This document shows, one piece after another, positions 397 through 24,899 of a stretch of 26,566 nucleotides of DNA. Position numbers and translations under genes: made by a program. How positions within the stretch are numbered: the stretch's first letter is position 1; each line of letters opens with the position of its first letter. This DNA is from a virus. A model generated the notes under the pieces. That model had not been told where the DNA came from. It ran no database searches and saw only the letters and a list, made by a program, of their open reading frames with translations. The DNA lies in IMG/VR virus record IMGVR_UViG_3300046007_010801, positions 1 through 26,566 of that record; one strand, 5' to 3'.

Positions 397-2091
397 ATGG
401 TAACTATTAAAGAAATATATAATGAACTAGTCGAAGCGGCTAGTCCGTCAGCTGTGGCGTATTTTCCTGGGAGTTTTAAACCTCCCCATAAAGGTCATTT
501 TAACGCTGTTAAAAGCTTAGCATCTCGTCCATTTGTTACACAAGTGGTTGTTATAATAGGTCAAAAGGAAAAAAACGGTATAAACGCCAACATGAGTAAA
601 GACATTTGGAATATATACTTAAAAGCGCAACCTAATCCTAAAGTTAAGGTTAGAATAGCTAGTGATGCATCTCCTGTTAAAGATATATTTGATATTTTAG
701 ACAAGGATTTAAATAAAATTGCTTATGTAGCTGCTACTATGAGTGATCCTGATGATCAAGGATATGTTGAATCTTTAACTAAAGCGTTTGGTGATAGAGT
801 AAAACCACTTAATGTTGAAGAACAAACATTAGTTAATGGTCAAGTACTAACAAGTGATCAAATTCTTGCTTTAGTAGGTGAATTAAAACAATATGACTCT
901 CAGCTTAAAACAGCTGATAAAGGTACTACAATATATAGCAAAGCTAGAAATGGATACTTAAATACATTAAACAAACTAAAAGCATGCTTCCCAGAATCAG
1001 TAATCCAAAAAGGATTATTTGATGATGTAGTTAGAATCTTAGGTGTTGATTTGTTTAGTCCTGATGAATTACAAGAAAATATATTCTCAATTGGATGGTG
1101 GAGTGATGTGTTAAAAGAAGAAGAATATAAACTTGACGTTAAACCTACAGTTAAAGCTAAAGATGTTGACCCTAAAGAACTAAAGAAAGGTATTGCAGTT
1201 GAGAAAGAACACACAACAGATCTTAAAACTGCTAAACGAATAGCTTTAAATCATTTAGGTGAAGATCCAAAATACTATACTAAATTAGCTAAAGCTAAAT
1301 TAGAAGAAGAACAAAACGGTAACTTAGACTCTATAAATGATTTTATAAAATTTGCTGTTGATACTTTAGAATTACAACAAGTACCTAAAATAACTTTTAC
1401 AGATGATGAGGAATTAGCTAAGCAAATGCATTCATTAGGAATGTATAAACCTCAAACAGATGAGTTATTAGTTGTACGTGGTAATAGAATGATAGCTGAT
1501 GTTTTAAGGACATTAGCTCATGAATTAGTACACCGTAAACAAAATGAATTAGGACAACTTGAACCTGGGTCTGGAGCTACTGGATCACCAGTTGAAAATG
1601 AAGCTAACGCTGCCGCTGGTGTTTTATTAAGATTATATGGTGCTAAAAATACTGATATATATGAAGCTATAAAATTAAATGAAGTAGGTGAAATTAGTAA
1701 TCCATTTGATTGGAAATATGATTTTGCTGATGATGATGGAAACTATTTTTACTCATTTAATTCTCCCCAAAACAAATACTCAGTAGGCATCAGTTGGAGT
1801 GGAGATGACTCATACGAAGTATTATTTAATACTGAAGGTGAGATGGGTCAAGATACAGGTGAAGGAGTAGCTATGAGAGTATTATCCACTGTAACAGCTA
1901 TAACACTTGATTTTATAGATAGAATTGATCCTGAAGAAGTTATTCTTAGACCTATACAAACTAAAAAAGCAGGTGATAAAGTAGATACAAGACGTTTTAA
2001 TGTTTATGGAGCTTATTTAAGAAAAAATTTGCCTTCTGGCTATAAATTAATAACTTTAGGAGATACATACCGCATGATAAAAAATAGATAG
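397..2091 (+). CDS. Nucleotidyltransferase / DUF5661-like / HExxH metallopeptidase fusion with head-targeting leader
   Basis: A 564-residue multidomain protein. Residues 1-13 (MVTIKEIYNELVE|A) look like a capsid-targeting leader with a gp21-type cut site. Residues about 20-165 are a cytidylyltransferase-type domain: PGSFKPPHKGH carries the HxGH nucleotide-binding motif (H31, H34). Residues about 255-303 resemble DUF5661 (ELKKGIAVEKEHT, then HLGEDPKYYTKL). Residues about 310-425 contain LAHELVHRKQ, an HExxH zinc motif (H375, E376, H379), with ENEA near 400-403 as a likely third ligand, so a zincin-type peptidase. Residues about 430-564 match a C-terminal domain I recall from marine phage proteins, function unknown. 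Further LxE-type sites (DVLKE near 241, KLNE near 429) fall between domains, so the protein might be cut into parts in the prohead. Substrates of both enzyme domains are unknown. Confidence 0.75.
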   Translation: MVTIKEIYNELVEAASPSAVAYFPGSFKPPHKGHFNAVKSLASRPFVTQVVVIIGQKEKNGINANMSKDIWNIYLKAQPNPKVKVRIASDASPVKDIFDILDKDLNKIAYVAATMSDPDDQGYVESLTKAFGDRVKPLNVEEQTLVNGQVLTSDQILALVGELKQYDSQLKTADKGTTIYSKARNGYLNTLNKLKACFPESVIQKGLFDDVVRILGVDLFSPDELQENIFSIGWWSDVLKEEEYKLDVKPTVKAKDVDPKELKKGIAVEKEHTTDLKTAKRIALNHLGEDPKYYTKLAKAKLEEEQNGNLDSINDFIKFAVDTLELQQVPKITFTDDEELAKQMHSLGMYKPQTDELLVVRGNRMIADVLRTLAHELVHRKQNELGQLEPGSGATGSPVENEANAAAGVLLRLYGAKNTDIYEAIKLNEVGEISNPFDWKYDFADDDGNYFYSFNSPQNKYSVGISWSGDDSYEVLFNTEGEMGQDTGEGVAMRVLSTVTAITLDFIDRIDPEEVILRPIQTKKAGDKVDTRRFNVYGAYLRKNLPSGYKLITLGDTYRMIKNR

Positions 2092-2094
2092 GTT

Positions 2095-2565
2095 ATGAAA
2101 TACACAATATATTGTGACATGGATGGCGTACTTGTCAACTTTGTCCAAGGTTATAAAGAGTTAACAGGGATAGATACTTCCACTTATGTTCAAGGTAATG
2201 CTAATTTTTGGGCTCCTGTAGACGCAGAAGGTGCAGCTTGGTGGGCTAATTTAGATTGGATGCCTGATGGTCCTAATCTATGGAATTATATTAAAAAATA
2301 TAACCCATATATTTTATCATCTCCATCACGTAGTAACAGTTCTAGAGTAGGTAAGGATGCTTGGTGTAAAATCAACATACCAAACCAATATAGAAAACTA
2401 TTACTTTATCCTAGACATGAAAAACAAAAATTTGCTGGCCCTAATCATATACTAATTGATGATATGGCTGAAACCATTAAGGAATGGAATAATAAAGGTG
2501 GTATAGGCATACTTCATAAATCAGCTGCTACTACTATATTCACACTTAAAACTCTTGGATTATGA
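2095..2565 (+). CDS. HAD-superfamily 5'(3')-deoxyribonucleotidase-like protein
   Basis: A 156-residue protein starting 3 bases after the previous stop. The N-terminus has YCDMDGVLVNF, the HAD motif I DxDGxxx(D/N) with nucleophile D8 and acid/base D10. Motif II is probably ILSSPS (residues 73-78), the basic motif III residue lies in HEKQKFAG (109-115), and motif IV is ILIDD (119-123). This set and length fit the 5'-nucleotidase C family, which removes phosphate from nucleoside monophosphates, including small phage members. A role in nucleotide pools during DNA synthesis is plausible. It ends in a 4-base ATGA overlap with the next gene, so the two are likely translated together. The superfamily is sure; the exact substrate is not. 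Confidence 0.82.
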   Translation: MKYTIYCDMDGVLVNFVQGYKELTGIDTSTYVQGNANFWAPVDAEGAAWWANLDWMPDGPNLWNYIKKYNPYILSSPSRSNSSRVGKDAWCKINIPNQYRKLLLYPRHEKQKFAGPNHILIDDMAETIKEWNNKGGIGILHKSAATTIFTLKTLGL

Positions 2566-3183: not shown

Positions 3184-3582
3184 ATGGAAGTAACAGTAAT
3201 AACTAAAAATAGCCAACCAATGGCTGATTTTGTATCAACCTTATTGGAATCTCGCAACCAAGCCCATGTATTTCATTGGCAAGTTCAAGGTGAAGGATCA
3301 GATGCTAGACATAGAGCATTAGAAACATACTATGATGAAATTGTTGATTTAATTGATGAATTAGTTGAATCATATCAAGGTCGTTATGGAATACTACGTG
3401 GTTATAAAGGTAACGCTGAATATCTTGAAAATCAAAGTGAATTAAAATACTTTGAAGCACTTTGCATGTATGTTGAAAAAAATCGCGGCTCATTACCTCA
3501 AGACTCATACATCCAAAACCAGATTGATGAAATAGTAAAGTTAATTGAAATAACTAAGAATAAACTAATAAACTTACGTTAA
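3184..3582 (+). CDS. Ferritin/Dps-like helical phage protein (DUF5856-like)
   Basis: A 132-residue, mostly helical protein. The segment QAHVFHWQVQGEGSDARHRALETYYDEIVDLIDELVESYQG (residues about 26-66 in two stretches) matches a small phage family, DUF5856-like, in which the HWQ, ARHRAL and DELVE elements resemble the two-helix core of Dps/ferritin-like proteins. Candidate metal ligands are H28, H31, H43, E47 and D51. Ferritin-like proteins bind iron or protect DNA from oxidation, but a distant phage member may not keep this activity. The stop overlaps the next start by one base (TAATG), linking it to the small-protein cluster downstream. Family membership is judged from motif memory, so the function is tentative. 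Confidence 0.6.
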   Translation: MEVTVITKNSQPMADFVSTLLESRNQAHVFHWQVQGEGSDARHRALETYYDEIVDLIDELVESYQGRYGILRGYKGNAEYLENQSELKYFEALCMYVEKNRGSLPQDSYIQNQIDEIVKLIEITKNKLINLR

Positions 3583-4319
3583 TGAGATTAGTTGATATAT
3601 TAAAAGAAGGTCTAGAAGATCATGCTAAATATGAACTAACCAAAGCTGGTTTGTTTGATAAAGATTCTGACTATGGTGGAATGATAGGTAAAGCTGTTTT
3701 AGAACTAACCCAAACATTTGCTAAACAAGGTCATAGTGGTATGAGTGCCGCTTGGGTTAGAGAATTATTTAATAAACTAGCTAATTATGAAACATTAACT
3801 CCAATCACTAACGAAGCTGAAGAGTGGAATGATATTACTGAATATAATGGTAATGGTAAACAATTATTCCAAAATAAACGTAATCCTGCTGTCTTTTCTA
3901 AAGATGGAGGTAAAACATGGTATAATGTAAATGAAAAGACTATTAAAGAAGGAATTAAAATAGGTCTTACTCAATATAAAACATTACTTAAAGAAGAAGA
4001 AAATCCAATAGTATATAAGATAAAGGGTATTCTTGTTACCAACACTGAAATACGTGGACAAACTGATATTTTATCTGATATTCGTTCTTTATCAGGTATC
4101 ACAATTGTATCAAGCAAAGAATTACGCCCTGACGCTGAAGTGACAGATAATCCTTATTTTTATTCTGAATTGAGTGTTAAGATTGATCCACATCCTTATT
4201 TAGGTAAAGGTGGATTTGGTAGAACTAATCTAGAAAATCTAATTAAAGCTATTAACCGTATTCAAGGTGTACGTAATTTTAAAATTACATCTAAAGTAAC
4301 ATCTGCAAAACCATACTAA
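3582..4319 (+). CDS. Two-domain protein with capsid-targeting leader; predicted head-packaged
   Basis: A 245-residue protein starting inside the previous stop (TAATG). It begins MRLVDILKE|G, a clear gp21-type leader. Residues about 13-115 (HAKYELTKAGLFDKDSDYGG, QGHSGMSA, EEWNDI, FQNKRNPAVF) match a domain common in T4-like phage genomes with no known activity. A second domain (about 141-240) with the look of a small alpha/beta fold (VYKIKGILVT, then ILSDIRSLSGITIVSS) follows. Between the two lies KTLLKE|EE (residues 133-140), another (L/I)xE-type site, so the two halves could be separated during head maturation. Its place among several proteins with the same type of leader supports a packaged internal protein. 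The biochemical function is unknown. Confidence 0.6.
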   Translation: MRLVDILKEGLEDHAKYELTKAGLFDKDSDYGGMIGKAVLELTQTFAKQGHSGMSAAWVRELFNKLANYETLTPITNEAEEWNDITEYNGNGKQLFQNKRNPAVFSKDGGKTWYNVNEKTIKEGIKIGLTQYKTLLKEEENPIVYKIKGILVTNTEIRGQTDILSDIRSLSGITIVSSKELRPDAEVTDNPYFYSELSVKIDPHPYLGKGGFGRTNLENLIKAINRIQGVRNFKITSKVTSAKPY

Positions 4320-5893: not shown

Positions 5894-6347
5894 AGAATTA
5901 GTTCGCGCCTTAATTACTGAAACAGTAAAAGATCGCATTAAACAAATTAAAGAAAAAGCTGAAGCTAGTAAAACAGCACACGCTAAAGACGTGGTTAAAA
6001 TCCTAGAAGATGAAGCTAAAGTACTTGATAAATTAGCTACTGCTGTTAAAAAAGAATATGACAAGCATGACTTTGGTGAGTTAAAGAAAGAATTAGATCG
6101 TCTTGAATCATTACGTGATTCTAAATTGGCTAAGGCTGAAGCTTTAAAGAAAAAGCACATGGCTGGTGAGAAAAGCGATAAGAAAAAGAAAATTGAAGAA
6201 AAACTAAAACCTAAAATGGGCGCAGGTGCTTATGTTAAAGATTTTGAAAAATCTAAAGCTCCACAGTTCAAAGGTAAGTCTAAAGAGAAAAAACAAAAAA
6301 TGGCTATCGCCGCTTATCTATCAGCTAAGGGTGAGAAGAAAAAATAA
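5886..6347 (+). CDS. Lys-rich coiled-coil protein with possible capsid-targeting leader
   Basis: A 153-residue, very basic, alpha-helical protein. It begins MGKELVRALITE|T, ending in an ITE site. Residues about 15-105 are a long charged helix or coiled coil; the C-terminal part (GAGAYVKDFEKSKAPQFKGK, then KEKKQKMAIAAYLSAKG) matches a short module that I recall at the end of many T4-like and marine phage proteins. The strong positive charge would suit a DNA-neutralising internal head protein. It overlaps the holin-like gene by 8 bases and joins the next gene through TAATG. The function is unknown. Confidence 0.6.
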   Translation: MGKELVRALITETVKDRIKQIKEKAEASKTAHAKDVVKILEDEAKVLDKLATAVKKEYDKHDFGELKKELDRLESLRDSKLAKAEALKKKHMAGEKSDKKKKIEEKLKPKMGAGAYVKDFEKSKAPQFKGKSKEKKQKMAIAAYLSAKGEKKK

Positions 6348-7144
6348 TGATTAACCTAAAAGACATATTAGTTGAAGCTCTACTTGAGAAAAAAGCAGAC
6401 AGATGTAAACGCATAGCTGATAGACGCTATGATAAACCATCAGCTTATAAATCAGGAGCTATAGTAAGATGTCGTCAAGGTAAAATTTGGAAAGACCTCA
6501 AAGAAGATGATTTAGAAGAAGCTAAACAAGTTGGTATTTTATATCACTGGACATCATTAAAAAATTTAGAAGATATAATTAAAACTAATACCATACGCCC
6601 CGCCTATTCTGAGTTTGATGATGAAGATCAAGGGGTTTCTTTAACTCGAAGCAAAAACAAACATCAATTTGGAATATCTGAAGCAGCAGATTGTGTTATA
6701 GTTTTAGATGGAGATAAATTATCTAATAATTATAAAATTAAACCATATAATGATTTAGAAGTAGCTCAGTATGATGATTTTGGTGTTTTTGATGAAATGG
6801 AAGAAAGATTATTAGGTTCTATTAAAAATTTAAACAAATATGTAGTAAAAATCATACTGTATAAATCAGATCCTAAAATTGAATCTTTATTAAAAGAAAA
6901 AAATATACCCTACGAATTAAATTTAAATGAATCACTACATAAGTGGTTTTCAAGAAAAGGAGGCGCTGGCAAAGAAGGTGGTTGGGTTGATTGTAATACA
7001 TGCCGTAAAGTAGATGGTAAAACTAAGTGTAAACCTTGTGGTAGAAAAGAAGGTGAAAAACGAGCTAAATACCCGTCATGTCGACCAACACCCGCAGGAT
7101 GTAAAAGACCAGGCAAAGGTAAAACTTGGGGTAAAACAAAATAA
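6347..7144 (+). CDS. ADP-ribosyltransferase-like protein with capsid-targeting leader
   Basis: A 265-residue protein. N-terminus: [11 protein letters not shown], a textbook gp21-type leader. Residues about 15-48 ([27 protein letters not shown]) match a short Cys/basic module common in phages. Residues about 62-172 have the order LYHWTS (65-70), VSLTR (97-101), VIVLDGDKL and EMEERLL (150-156), which resembles the H/R-S-E pattern of ADP-ribosyltransferase folds, with E150-x-E152 or E153 as candidate catalytic Glu. LNLNE|S (191-196) then separates a C-terminal Cys-rich basic module ([29 protein letters not shown]). T4 packages its ADP-ribosyltransferase Alt in the head, so a packaged enzyme of this type makes sense. 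The ART assignment rests on motif order only. Confidence 0.6.
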
Positions 7145-10237: not shown

Positions 10238-10732
10238 ATGAATATCTTTTATATCCACTCAGACCCAATCTTAGCTGCTAAGGATTTATGTGATGATCAT
10301 GTTCGCAAAATGCAAATTGAATCAGCGCAAATGCTTTGTACTACTCATTGGGCTTTAGGGCATGAAGCACCATATAAACGTGCTCATTTTAATCACCCAT
10401 CAACTAAATGGGTTAGAGAATCAATCCAACATTATAGATGGCTTGTAGAACATGGTTTAGAAGTATGTCGACAGTTTACTTCACGCTATGGTAAACATCA
10501 TAAAACACAAGATGTACTTGAATGGTGTAAATTAAATGAACCAAGTATTCCTGACATTGGTTTTGCTCCTCCTCCACAATGTATGCCTGAAGAATATAAG
10601 AATATAGACACAATAGAGGCATATAGAACTTACTATATTCAAGATAAAATAAAAATTAAACAATTAAATTGGAATAAATTAAATAATAAACCAGAATGGA
10701 TAAAAAAATCGTCATTGTTGGCGCTGGCGTAG
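10238..10732 (+). CDS. Pyrimidine-dimer DNA glycosylase-like protein
   Basis: A 164-residue protein beginning MNIFYIHSDPILAAKDLCDDHVRKMQIESAQML (given here to show the motif D9-P10, D19-D20-H21 and E28-SAQML in short form), followed by NHPSTKWVRES, HYRWLVEHG and TSRYGKHHKT. This layout matches a phage and bacterial family I associate with pyrimidine-dimer DNA glycosylases (T4 DenV/PF03013 group, distant), which cut DNA at UV-damaged sites. The catalytic N-terminal Thr of DenV is not obvious, so the activity is uncertain. Its C-terminus overlaps the next gene by 37 bases in another frame. Confidence 0.5.
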   Translation: MNIFYIHSDPILAAKDLCDDHVRKMQIESAQMLCTTHWALGHEAPYKRAHFNHPSTKWVRESIQHYRWLVEHGLEVCRQFTSRYGKHHKTQDVLEWCKLNEPSIPDIGFAPPPQCMPEEYKNIDTIEAYRTYYIQDKIKIKQLNWNKLNNKPEWIKKSSLLALA

Positions 10733-12335: not shown

Positions 12336-12854
12336 ATGAAAATAGGATTATGTGGAACAATGAGTGTAGGTAAGACAACGCTAGTTAAAGCGTTATCTGA
12401 ACTACCTCAATTTAAAGATTACCATTTGGCGACTGAACGTAGTAAATATCTACGTGACTTAGGTATTCCTTTAAATACTGATTCTACAGTTAATGGTCAA
12501 ATAATATTTTTAGCTGAAAGATCTGCTGAATTATTACGTGATAATGTACTAACTGATAGAACAATATGGGACGTATCAGCGTTCACTATGTTAGCTAAAT
12601 CAATAGATACTGGTTTTAAATCAACATTAATTAACACCGCTATGATATTAAAAGATCAATATGATGTGGTTTTTTATATTGATCCTGCTGGAACTGTTAT
12701 TGAAGATAACGGTGTTCGTGAAACTAATGTTGAGTATAGAGCTAATATAAACCAAGAAATATTGCGTCTACTAGCACTACATGCTCCTAAAAAATTAGTT
12801 GTTCTTAGTGGTCCCACTGAAGAACGAGTTAAAACGATTTTAGAACATATTTAA
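12336..12854 (+). CDS. P-loop NTPase, nucleoside/nucleotide-kinase-like (AAA_28/NadR-like)
   Basis: A 172-residue protein. The N-terminus KIGLCGTMSVGKTTLVKAL has a Walker A motif (G7-x4-GKT). LTDRTIWDVSAF (about 72-83) carries the DRxxxD element seen in deoxynucleoside and thymidylate kinases, and VVFYIDPAG gives a later core strand. This fits the AAA_28/NadR kinase group, which phosphorylates nucleosides or related ribosides. In a phage, a role in nucleotide or NAD supply is plausible. The substrate cannot be read from the sequence. Confidence 0.75.
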   Translation: MKIGLCGTMSVGKTTLVKALSELPQFKDYHLATERSKYLRDLGIPLNTDSTVNGQIIFLAERSAELLRDNVLTDRTIWDVSAFTMLAKSIDTGFKSTLINTAMILKDQYDVVFYIDPAGTVIEDNGVRETNVEYRANINQEILRLLALHAPKKLVVLSGPTEERVKTILEHI

Positions 12855-19669: not shown

Positions 19670-21334
19670 ATGACAACATTAGAATTATACCGTAAACATA
19701 AAGCTGGCGAAGTATCTCGCGAGAAGTTTTTATATGAAGTAAGACGTGATAATAATATCCCATGGGTATTAAACACTACATCATATGATGATGCTATTAA
19801 GATCCTTAAAAACAAAAGTATTATTAGTGAAGAATATGATGGTGGACCTGAAGATTTAGCTAAAATGGCTAAAGATGAAGACAACACAGCTACACTAACA
19901 AGTGCTGAAGTAGTTAAACTATCAGCTAAAGCAGGACAAATAGTTCCAGATGCAGAAGCTGATTTAAATGATTTAGCTTCAGCTTACGGTGATAAAGTAC
20001 CTAAACGTAAAGTAATAGATCTTTTAGCTAATTATGATATTACATTCGCTGACCTAAGAAAAGTTAAAGCATCAAAAGAAAAATGGTTATCTATGGATGA
20101 CTTGATGAATAGAGGATATCTTGAAGAAGATGAAAATCTTGAAGAAACATCTCCTCAAGATGCTAAAGCAGTTGAAGATGCTATTAATACAGGTAAAATA
20201 GATCCTGAAAAAGTAAAATCAGCAGCTGAAAAAGCAGAAAAAGGTGACCCAACTGATTTAGCTTTACTTATGCTTAATGCTGGAAGATTATTTGAAGCTA
20301 AAAAAGGTAAGAAAAAACAACCAAAAGAATTACATATAGATGTAGCTAACCCATATGAATATCGTCATGGTATTCAACATGAGTTAACTGAAATGGATGA
20401 TTATAGTGCTGAAGCACTTGAAAAAGCTAAATCTAAAGTATTAAAGAACTTAGCTAAAGATCCATTATTTTATTCTACTTTACTTAACCAAAAACAATCA
20501 CCTTACAAATTCAAAGCACCTGAAACTGACAAACCAGGAATGCAGGCTAACGCTGATGGTACTTTAAAGAAAGGTGCTGGTAAAGTTGAAAAAGCAAACG
20601 TTAAAGATACTCAAGGTAAAAAAGAAGAAGGATCTAAACATCCTAAAGGTGTTAAAGAAATGACTATGACACCTAAAAAAGCCAAAGGAATTAAAAAGAC
20701 TATGGCTGTACCTGGTAAAGAAAAAACTATTAAGCTAAAAGAAGGTATAAAACTTATGGATTTTTTTTTAGCCGAAGATAGAGCAATGTTCGCTGATGAA
20801 CCTGCTGATGCTGAAAAATATAAAATAAAAAAAGATCTTAAAGGTAAAATAGTACAAGCCACTAACGATGAAGGTGACACATTCAGCATGAATGATGAAG
20901 CTATAGCAATTGATAATGGACAAAAAATTAAAATAGCTGGTTTTGAAGAATCTCAAGGTAAAGTAAAAGCATTATATAACGCTGGTATGTTTTTCTCATC
21001 AATTGATATCGATGGATTAAAACCAGTAAATAAAGGATTTAGACCTGGTGTTGATTTAGGTAAATCATTTGAGAAATTTAAAGGTATCAAAGAATACATT
21101 AAGTCTAAACTTAAAACAGAAGATGCTGCTAAAGACAATCAAGCAAAGCAAGCAGCAATTGTCGCGGCTGGTAAAGAATTAGATGCTTTAAGAAGTCAAT
21201 TAAGTGGAATCAATAATGATACCGGTTTAAACCCAGACGAGAAAAATAAAAAGAAAGCGTTCTTACAATCAAAAATAAATGATGCCACTAAAAGAGCAGC
21301 AGATTTAAGATCAGGAAAAGTAACATACCCATAA
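19670..21334 (+). CDS. Large prohead core-type protein with several predicted protease sites
   Basis: A 554-residue, highly charged protein just before the protease. The N-terminus (TLELYRKHKAGEVSREKFLY, then EVRRDNNIPWV) resembles one seen in marine phage core proteins. LNAGRLFE|AKKG (E209) is a strong gp21-type site, followed by a DUF5661-like domain (about 227-275: NPYEYRHGIQHELTEMDDYS, then NLAKDPLFYSTLL). Residues 280-360 are Lys-rich and disordered; MDFFLAE|D (363-370) is another site; then a beta-rich domain (about 378-460) and a C-terminal helix. A run of nine T (20761-20769) sits in the reading frame. The protein is probably cleaved into several peptides during maturation. The role is inferred from place and cut sites. 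Confidence 0.6.
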   Translation: MTTLELYRKHKAGEVSREKFLYEVRRDNNIPWVLNTTSYDDAIKILKNKSIISEEYDGGPEDLAKMAKDEDNTATLTSAEVVKLSAKAGQIVPDAEADLNDLASAYGDKVPKRKVIDLLANYDITFADLRKVKASKEKWLSMDDLMNRGYLEEDENLEETSPQDAKAVEDAINTGKIDPEKVKSAAEKAEKGDPTDLALLMLNAGRLFEAKKGKKKQPKELHIDVANPYEYRHGIQHELTEMDDYSAEALEKAKSKVLKNLAKDPLFYSTLLNQKQSPYKFKAPETDKPGMQANADGTLKKGAGKVEKANVKDTQGKKEEGSKHPKGVKEMTMTPKKAKGIKKTMAVPGKEKTIKLKEGIKLMDFFLAEDRAMFADEPADAEKYKIKKDLKGKIVQATNDEGDTFSMNDEAIAIDNGQKIKIAGFEESQGKVKALYNAGMFFSSIDIDGLKPVNKGFRPGVDLGKSFEKFKGIKEYIKSKLKTEDAAKDNQAKQAAIVAAGKELDALRSQLSGINNDTGLNPDEKNKKKAFLQSKINDATKRAADLRSGKVTYP

Positions 21335-21335
21335 C

Positions 21336-21968
21336 ATGAGCAAACAAGTTTTAATAGAATATTTTGCGTTTAAACCATCGCCTAAATCATTACATGAGGC
21401 TAAAACAAGCCGTGATGGAAACTTAATAGTTGAAGGTGTAGTACAGCGTGCTGATGCTACAAATGAAAACAGAAGAGTTTACCCTAAACCGGTACTTGAG
21501 CGTGAAGTAGAAAAATATATATCTGGCCCTATCGCTGAAAACCGCGCTTTAGGCGAATTAGACCATCCAGACTCATCAATCATTAACCTTAAAAACGTAT
21601 GCCATAATATTAAAAAATTATGGTGGGATGGTGATGATTTAATGGGTAGTATTGAAGTATTACCTACACCTAGTGGTAATATATTAAAATCGTTGTTTAT
21701 TAACAATATTACCGTGGGAATTTCGTCTAGAGGAATGGGTTCAGTAAAGCCGTTGGGTGAAGGAACTGTCGAAGTTCAAGACGATTTTGAGTTATTATGT
21801 TGGGATTTCGTTTCAACACCATCAACTCAAGGTGCATTTATGCGCCCTGTTGGAACAATGAATGAAAGCTACAACCCATCAACCAAAACATACACCAAAT
21901 ATACCAAAGTGAACCAATTAATCTCAGAAATTATTTGCTCTCAGACAGGTATATGTTGCATAAGATAA
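21336..21968 (+). CDS. 21: Prohead core protease (T4 gp21-like)
   Basis: A 210-residue serine protease of the herpesvirus-assemblin-like S77 type. GELDHPD carries the catalytic His (H77) and VGISSRGMG carries the catalytic Ser (S130 or S131). The surrounding NLIVEGVVQRADATNENRRV block and CWDFVSTPS are conserved in this family. It is built into the prohead core, becomes active after assembly, and cuts scaffold, capsid and internal proteins after (L/I)xE before DNA packaging. It starts one base after the previous stop and a terminator follows. It is the enzyme expected to process the many (L/I)xE leaders in this window. Confidence 0.93.
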   Translation: MSKQVLIEYFAFKPSPKSLHEAKTSRDGNLIVEGVVQRADATNENRRVYPKPVLEREVEKYISGPIAENRALGELDHPDSSIINLKNVCHNIKKLWWDGDDLMGSIEVLPTPSGNILKSLFINNITVGISSRGMGSVKPLGEGTVEVQDDFELLCWDFVSTPSTQGAFMRPVGTMNESYNPSTKTYTKYTKVNQLISEIICSQTGICCIR

Positions 21969-23267: not shown

Positions 23268-24899
23268 ATGAGTACTGTTCAATCATTAATCGAATCTGCT
23301 AACCCATGGCAGTCTATGCAATCTGACGCTCAGCGTCTTGCTGGAAAATGGGGCAAGTCAGGTTTGTTAGAAGGTCTTAAAGAACAAGACAAAACAAACA
23401 TGGCGACAATGCTTGAAAACCAAGCAAAACAATTAGTAGTAGAAGCTTCTCAAACAGGTACTGGTGGTACATTCACTCCAGGTACTGGTGAGCAATGGGC
23501 TGGTGTAGCGTTACCGTTAGTACGTAAAGTATTCGGTCAAATCGCTGCTAAAGAGTTCGTTTCTGTTCAACCAATGAGCTTACCTGCTGGTTTAGTGTTC
23601 TATCTTGATTTCCAATATGGAACTAACAAATTACCTTTCTCTCAAGGTAACTCTATTTACGGTACACCAAGTGCTAACTTCGGTAACTTAGCTGAAGGTG
23701 GTTTATATGGTGCTGGCCGTTTTGGTTACTCAACTAACCAATTCTCAGCTTCAAACGCAACTGTAGCTTCTACAGCTACTGCTACTTGGGCTGAAGTTGA
23801 TTTTGATTCAGCTGTATCTGGTACTGTACAAGCATCAAATATGGTTAAAATCACTTTCGCTACTGGTTCTATTAGTTCTAACCTTGATGTTAATGGTATC
23901 CGTGCTTTTGAATTAAGTGGTTCAGCTGTTGTATCTCCTGTTACAACTTTAACTCAATTCACTTCTATTGATGGTGGTAACCTTAGCTTCTTCGTTAGTG
24001 GTTCTAACAAAGCTGCTGTTGACGCTGTAACTGGTTCTATCACTGTATTCTACAACAAGAAAACTGCTGATAATGCTCGTGGTGATTTTGAAGATGGTCA
24101 ATCATATTCTACACCAAACGCTCAAAGTGCAACTTCAATCGCTATTCCTGAAATTAACGTTCAGTTAAGAAGTGAAACTATTGCTGCTAAAACTAAAAAG
24201 TTAAAAGCACAATGGACTCCAGAATTCGCACAAGACTTAAACGCTTACCAAAACTTAGATGCTGAAGCTGAATTAACTTCTATGTTATCTGAGTACATTT
24301 CATTAGAAATCGACTTAGAAATCTTAGATATGTTAATCCAAAATGCTCCTACTTCTGAAGTTTGGTCTGCAAAAGTTGGTAACCAATTAGATGCTTCTGG
24401 TGTTGCTTTCCAAAGCAATACAAGTGGTGTTTACTACACTCAAATGACTTGGTTCCAAACTTTAGGTATCAAATTACAAAAAGTATCTAACACAATCCAT
24501 CAAAGAACTTTAAGAGGTGGCGCTAACTTCATGGTTGTAAGCCCTGCAGTTGCTACTATCTTAGAATCTATTCCTGGATTCGCTGCTGATACTGACGGTG
24601 CTGCTGATACTATGAAGTATGCATTCGGTGTTCAGAAAGTTGGCCAATTAAACAGCCGTTACAAAGTTTATAAGAATCCTTATATGCTTGAAAACGTAAT
24701 CTTAATGGGCTTCCGTGGTAACCAATTCTTAGAAACTGGTGCCGTTTATGCTCCATACATTCCATTGATCATGACTCCATTAGTGTACGACCCAGCTACC
24801 TTCACTCCAAGAAAAGGTATCATGACTCGTTACGCTAAGAAAATGGTTCGTCCTGAATTCTATGGTATCGTTAAGGTTGCTGATTTAAACATTGTCTAA
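23268..24899 (+). CDS. 23: Major capsid protein (T4 gp23-like)
   Basis: A 543-residue HK97-fold capsid protein. Residues 1-59 are the propeptide, with a predicted gp21 cut at QLVVE|A (after E59), close to the T4 gp23 cut after residue 65. The mature N-terminus has TGTGGTFTPGTGEQWAGVAL, followed by PLVRKVFGQIAAKEFVSVQP and MSLPAGLVFYLDF, strongly conserved in gp23. A Ser/Thr/Gly-rich insert (about 165-275) probably forms the surface insertion domain. ETIAAKTKKLKAQWTPEFAQ and the C-terminal TRYAKKMVRPEFYGIV are also typical. It forms the hexamers of the head. It is 30 bases from the scaffold stop with an A-rich leader and no Shine-Dalgarno site, and a strong terminator follows. Confidence 0.96.
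   Translation: MSTVQSLIESANPWQSMQSDAQRLAGKWGKSGLLEGLKEQDKTNMATMLENQAKQLVVEASQTGTGGTFTPGTGEQWAGVALPLVRKVFGQIAAKEFVSVQPMSLPAGLVFYLDFQYGTNKLPFSQGNSIYGTPSANFGNLAEGGLYGAGRFGYSTNQFSASNATVASTATATWAEVDFDSAVSGTVQASNMVKITFATGSISSNLDVNGIRAFELSGSAVVSPVTTLTQFTSIDGGNLSFFVSGSNKAAVDAVTGSITVFYNKKTADNARGDFEDGQSYSTPNAQSATSIAIPEINVQLRSETIAAKTKKLKAQWTPEFAQDLNAYQNLDAEAELTSMLSEYISLEIDLEILDMLIQNAPTSEVWSAKVGNQLDASGVAFQSNTSGVYYTQMTWFQTLGIKLQKVSNTIHQRTLRGGANFMVVSPAVATILESIPGFAADTDGAADTMKYAFGVQKVGQLNSRYKVYKNPYMLENVILMGFRGNQFLETGAVYAPYIPLIMTPLVYDPATFTPRKGIMTRYAKKMVRPEFYGIVKVADLNIV

Follow-up and report, generated by a model that had tools for sequence, protein, structure and literature searches.

A candidate head-packaged polyprotein combining a nucleotidyltransferase-fold domain and a gluzincin in a T4-like phage fragment

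Our study examined IMG/VR record IMGVR_UViG_3300046007_010801, a fragment of a T4-like phage whose whole 26,566-base stretch is referred to here as the window. The fragment encodes a terminase, a portal, a gp21-type protease, a scaffold-like gene and a gp23-type head protein. The open reading frame (ORF) at 397-2091 runs uninterrupted from ATG to TAG and holds the domains listed in Table 1. A sequence-only reading had described it as an HxGH nucleotidyltransferase (NT), a DUF5661-like domain and an HExxH zincin fused behind a head leader, and had allowed for a frame error joining separate genes. Such an error was ruled out and the fusion was found intact, as relatives encode the domains in this order within a single reading frame; in locus L088 one ORF carries NT, zincin and DUF6934 domains, without DUF5661, and a nucleotidase gene comes next. 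The mean AlphaFold pLDDT was 91.5 for residues 1-310 and 90.6 for residues 301-564, with alignment rows from phage records left out of the structure-prediction input. The WW linker was a low-confidence stretch in these models (pLDDT 51-55, residues 231-250). Downstream, the HAD nucleotidase gene lies in frame with the ORF, with only TAG and GTT between them. Read-through or reassignment of this TAG was considered and set aside, as TAG also terminates ORFs at 10732 and 19041; the codon is assumed to be an ordinary stop, with read-through possible.

Table 1. Features of the ORF at 397-2091 and of associated genes in the window (a slash marks a putative cut)
Feature	Position	Strand	Size or basis
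Whole ORF: leader, NT, DUF5661, gluzincin, DUF6934-like domain	397..2091	+	564 aa
Leader, residues 1-13, MVTIKEIYNELVE/AASP, predicted amphipathic helix with LVE/A end	397..435	+	site statistics, model
HxGH (HIGH-superfamily) nucleotidyltransferase (NT) domain, residues 18-222	448..1062	+	PPAT/NadD fold
HKGH motif, residues 31-34	487..498	+	conservation in relatives
Second NT motif, degenerate, LTSDQIL	847..867	+	alignment to relatives
Linker LQE/NIFSIGWWSDVLKE/E, internal leader-like peptide, residues 225-241	1069..1119	+	peptide recurrence
DUF5661 domain, residues 252-299	1150..1293	+	PF18905 E 9.4e-12
Phi-x-E site LEE, DUF5661-zincin linker	1300..1308	+	motif scan
Predicted gluzincin-type metallopeptidase, residues 313-423	1333..1665	+	HMM of relatives; Wss1, selecase likeness
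HELVH zinc motif, residues 375-379	1519..1533	+	conservation
Third zinc ligand E400	1594..1596	+	conservation
Linker LNE/VGE/, residues 427-432	1675..1692	+	motif scan
C-terminal DUF6934-like domain, residues 436-558	1702..2070	+	via relative L047
HAD 5'(3')-deoxyribonucleotidase gene	2095..2565	+	phrog_2643 E 2.9e-25
gp21-type prohead protease, proposed processing enzyme	21336..21968	+	Peptidase_S77 E 8e-31; phrog_207
gp23-type major head protein	23268..24899	+	phrog_138

The NT call was upheld by the HxGH motif and by the fold. Residues 17-220 superposed on PPAT/NadD enzymes (Z up to 14.5, rmsd 2.8, 153 aligned), Foldseek matched the NT model to NadD with an E value of 3.6e-5, and the Pfam family CTP_transf_like matched residues 22-60 under its cut-off (E 0.0028). 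The motif histidines are not lost in most homologues, with H31 kept in 42/50 relatives and H34 in 49/50. The domain thus shares fold and motif with HIGH-superfamily nucleotidyltransferases (PPAT/CoaD, NadD and NadM), from which it differs in its weak sequence similarity, its fusion to a protease and the lack of their second motif. Relatives read (I/L)S(G/A)TxVR there (SSTQVR at the equivalent place in L088), and the arginine is present in 43/51 aligned sequences; the window copy has L157. This degeneracy had been overlooked in the sequence-only reading. As LTSDQIL does not fit the pattern (I/L)S(S/A/G)Txx(R/K), the window NT was not classed as an active adenylyltransferase, and its nucleotidyl-transfer activity may be low or absent.

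The DUF5661 domain scored 45.5 bits against a Pfam cut-off of 27, which confirmed the earlier call. The same domain is embedded in a DUF2213 protein from the head region of Vibrio phage VPs20 (L005:3395-4663), the gene for which sits between the terminase and capsid genes, and the window gene at 19670-21334, between portal and protease, holds a possible divergent copy. DUF5661 may be a head-core domain; a limited open-access search found no literature on it together with phage. A fourth folded domain, also overlooked earlier, occupies the C-terminus. PF22028 (DUF6934) gave no reported match on the window protein, and we infer the DUF6934-like assignment through the homologous domain of L047, which matched PF22028 at E 1.4e-6 (28.8 bits, cut-off 27). 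The nearest fold was the DNase I-like subdomain of RNase E (Z 10.0), and GNAT folds matched likewise (Z about 8). An RNase E-like nuclease was rejected, as the positions that we take to be the RNase E catalytic aspartates had no counterpart when judged by eye. Given the GNAT match and the missing aspartates, no function was assigned to this domain.

The zincin is predicted, from its motifs and relatives, to be a gluzincin-type metallopeptidase and a protease. The H, E and H of its HELVH motif (H375, E376 and H379) were kept in 83/83 relatives, so the metallopeptidase call survived the possibility that the motif is lost in homologues, and the third ligand, E400, was present in 84/84 sequences. 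The domain thus combines HExxH with a downstream Glu ligand, as in gluzincins. A core of about 110 residues is held in common with minimal gluzincins (selecase) and Wss1/SprT-like proteases (Z 8.4 against Wss1; Foldseek TMt 0.55 against selecase), whereas by sequence the window zincin belongs to a nearly virus-specific family. Relatives were missed by a single-sequence scan of viral contigs and recovered by alignment-based queries; there were at least 561 confirmed matches in viral contigs compared to 6 in 84,980 genomes, all 6 of which come from MAGs. In one further fusion (L154:4518-5642), ParB_N (E 9e-7) and DUF6934-like domains accompany a zincin.

Relatives were examined for the pairing of NT and zincin. 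In a sample of 64 distinct loci gathered with the NT alone, the zincin being ignored, the zincin was part of the same ORF in 28 and was encoded by the adjoining gene in 34, while 2 loci were truncated by the contig end, so that all 62 testable loci showed the pair. Seeding with the zincin gave 84 loci, including the window and three phages, in which the NT was fused in 34, adjacent in 16 and not detected in 24, with no room for it in 10. Distances between NT sequences and between zincin sequences were correlated (Spearman 0.69, 75 pairs, null maximum 0.14), as expected under co-inheritance, and coupled split genes overlap by about 16 nt. NT and zincin are therefore an obligate pair, beyond random assortment. 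Around them the architecture is modular, with at least 13 module combinations in several orders (NT-ZN, NT-ZN-HAD, ZN-HAD, HAD-ZN, ZN-NT, NT-ZN-CTD-HAD and others). The same parts, sought as separate genes, were indeed found as adjacent genes or in other fusions, and roughly half of the zincins are encoded on their own, with or without an NT alongside. The HAD 5'-nucleotidase is a frequent third module, fused or adjacent, and is fused to NT/zincin ORFs in L008-L013. A described phage offers a counterpart: the 908-aa protein of Flavobacterium phage immuto (MW353176), annotated as an NMN adenylyltransferase, carries an HxGH NT and an HExxH zincin in one ORF with a 5'-nucleotidase next, as in the window, but additionally has a pol-beta-like NTase at its N-terminus and a second HExxH, and no DUF5661 was found in it.

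Giant ORFs (1,300-2,000 aa or longer) have the NT at the start and the zincin mid-protein. Those of L028:573-5435, L059:2805-8603, L046:4269-7163 and similar loci have a NadM-like HxGH start, a central zincin and a C-terminal KxDG ligase-like region (REKTDGQALAISW), and end in GTFAPLNQILGIF. Microcystis phage Mel-JY01 has NT and KxDG without a zincin.

The leader and the linkers carry sites of the kind cut by a T4-type prohead protease. T4 gp21 cleaves after L/I-x-E (PMC9026906), and our scan used a slightly wider phi-x-E, with phi as L, I, V, M or F. In the window protein, sites occur at the leader end (LVE13, which also fits the narrower (L/I)xE form) and in the linkers (LQE 225-227, LKE 239-241, LEE 302-304 and LNE 427-429). 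Among 61 distinct NT leaders, 47 have a phi-x-E with Glu exactly at residue 13, compared to a mean of 2.0 and a maximum of 8 in 500 shuffles. Non-redundant domain linkers contained a site in 51/51 cases against 35 expected, with 121 sites in total against 58 expected; these leader and linker counts overstate significance against shuffles, since the sequences are related, and some linker sites are contributed by zincin C-termini (EIFE/DIYE). The record itself encodes a gp21-family protease (Peptidase_S77), and its gp23-type head protein has a presumed cleavage site, LVVE59/A, that resembles the leader site. The motif part of the proposed head leader with LxE linker sites thus stood, for LVE13 and all linkers, while packaging itself is something that we infer.

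Leader-like peptides were also found apart from the NT. The WW linker peptide opens an ORF in each of L019, L025 and L039 and lies inside 18 ORFs, a pattern suggestive of the fusion of a second gene along with its leader. In L020, L034, L045 and L048, the zincin ORF and an unrelated DUF5661-bearing neighbour share a leader of about 25 residues, which aligned with scores of 55-101 against shuffle maxima of 27-34, whereas the bodies aligned at chance. This leader class (GSKERLFEMMxRVNxLNE) is distinct from that of the window. Within the window, 16/34 N-termini have a phi-x-E at the leader position against 6.5 expected, that of the Tad3 homologue at 3582-4319 among them. The genes at 4319, 4594, 5199, 6347 and 7149 form a run of unrelated small genes with leaders alike; the last is listed as starting at 7014, and its true start is probably 7149.

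Taken together, this evidence suggests that the ORF at 397-2091 encodes a T4-type head-packaged payload polyprotein, a reading to which we give a probability of roughly 0.6. It is favoured by the modular shuffling, by phi-x-E in every linker and by leader-like peptides both internal and on unrelated genes. The amphipathic N-terminal leader would be a capsid-targeting sequence that carries the polyprotein into the prohead core; in T4, the first 10 residues of IPIII are enough for head targeting (PMC9026906). The gp21-type protease would remove the leader after LVE13 and cut the linkers at phi-x-E, so that the four modules (NT, DUF5661, gluzincin and DUF6934-like) come apart within the head. Like T4 Alt and internal protein I, these would be ejected along with the DNA and take effect immediately in the host cell, with the NT and gluzincin as the obligate functional core and the other modules and the neighbouring 5'-nucleotidase as exchangeable parts. 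Their role would most likely be host takeover or counter-defence in nucleotide- or NAD-type signalling. A bolder version, in which the linkers double as targeting leaders that the prohead protease cleaves and the NT-gluzincin pair is one counter-defence machine of aquatic T4-type phages, is tentative and on balance doubtful.

Of the two options offered by the sequence-only reading, the payload polyprotein is thus preferred, and an enzyme that nucleotidylates and cleaves a target keeps some force, since the NT-zincin pair is obligate. In that form the NT would attach a nucleotide to a putative host target, either a protein or a small molecule, which the gluzincin would also cleave, hence the inseparability of the two domains. 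The pairing in 62/62 loci, fused or split, the correlated distances and the overlapping genes all suit such a machine, but the degenerate NT motif of the window copy and the 24 zincin-seeded loci with no NT detected nearby do not, and we consider it quite unlikely. It is unlikely, too, that the protein is a self-processing polyvalent protein whose zincin cuts its own chain before or after injection, with the gp21-type protease of little matter. All zinc ligands are kept, the zincin is a hub domain of polyvalent proteins and autoprocessing has been proposed for DdrB of phage P1 (PMC5512222); against this stand the many zincins encoded as separate genes and the gp21-type motifs in the linkers.

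The leader itself is open to another reading. The helix of residues 4-15 was modelled with high pLDDT and packed beside the NT, so E13 may be structural and the N-terminal helix part of the NT fold. Such a helix, together with the PPAT/NadD fold, the adjacent or fused HAD 5'-nucleotidase and the leaderless zincin genes of split NT/zincin pairs, would fit an unpackaged cytoplasmic multi-enzyme of nucleotide or cofactor metabolism, with an NMNAT/PPAT-like NT, a deoxynucleotidase and an accessory protease. The leader and WW peptides on unrelated proteins and the placement of motifs at linkers speak against it, an obligate protease partner is hard to explain for a metabolic enzyme, and we regard this reading as improbable. 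A leaderless split zincin may nevertheless act in the cell instead of being packaged, and gene 397 does not adjoin the head gene cluster. Very improbable is a degenerate NT retained for a structural or scaffolding role in the prohead core: the change of R to L157, the altered S/T motif and the DUF5661 copy in the VPs20 DUF2213 protein point that way, whereas the retention of HxGH and all zinc ligands, and of the arginine by relatives, points away.

The payload polyprotein resembles two known systems. As in the T4 internal proteins and Alt (PMC9026906, PMC3012670), a short N-terminal leader ends in L/I-x-E, a gp21-family protease is encoded in the same genome and diverse bodies stand behind similar leaders; the window protein differs in its several enzyme domains and internal leader-like linkers, and its virion location is predicted from sequence. 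As in the polyvalent proteins of phages and conjugative elements (Iyer et al. 2017, PMC5512222), which combine disparate domains with a recurrent zincin and are expected to be injected with DNA, the window ORF has at least two disparate domains including a zincin. It differs in its T4-type setting, gp21-type sites and obligate NT-zincin pair; in the portion of that paper covered by the terms searched, an HxGH nucleotidyltransferase was not found. The parts are known, and within a limited open-access literature we found no description of a capsid-leader polyprotein that has leader-like cut sites within it and is built on an obligate HxGH NT-gluzincin core. If correct, our reading would bring together the capsid-targeted internal proteins of T4 and the injected polyvalent proteins, as effector polyproteins that the capsid protease matures and that seem common among environmental T4-like phages. 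A leader plus phi-x-E linkers would serve as a sequence rule for finding injected effectors, and the target of the obligate enzyme-protease pair is open to testing.

The counter-defence reading draws on neighbouring genes and on the precedents of T4 IPI and Alt (PMC3012670, PMC5512222). The gene at 3582-4319 encodes a homologue of the type I Thoeris inhibitor Tad3 (PF25185, E 1.1e-32) that carries an extra 9-residue leader, MRLVDILKE, where most of 11 relatives begin directly at the domain; a limited open-access search found no literature on Tad3 with Thoeris, and PADLOC returned no matches. Matches of the gene at 6347-7144 to ART-HYD1 (E 0.017), KptA (E 0.019) and DUF5872 (E 0.001) were all under the cut-off. 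At 12336-12854 lies an AAA_28 kinase (E 5e-11) that resembles the kinase part of NadR and could pair with an NMN adenylyltransferase.
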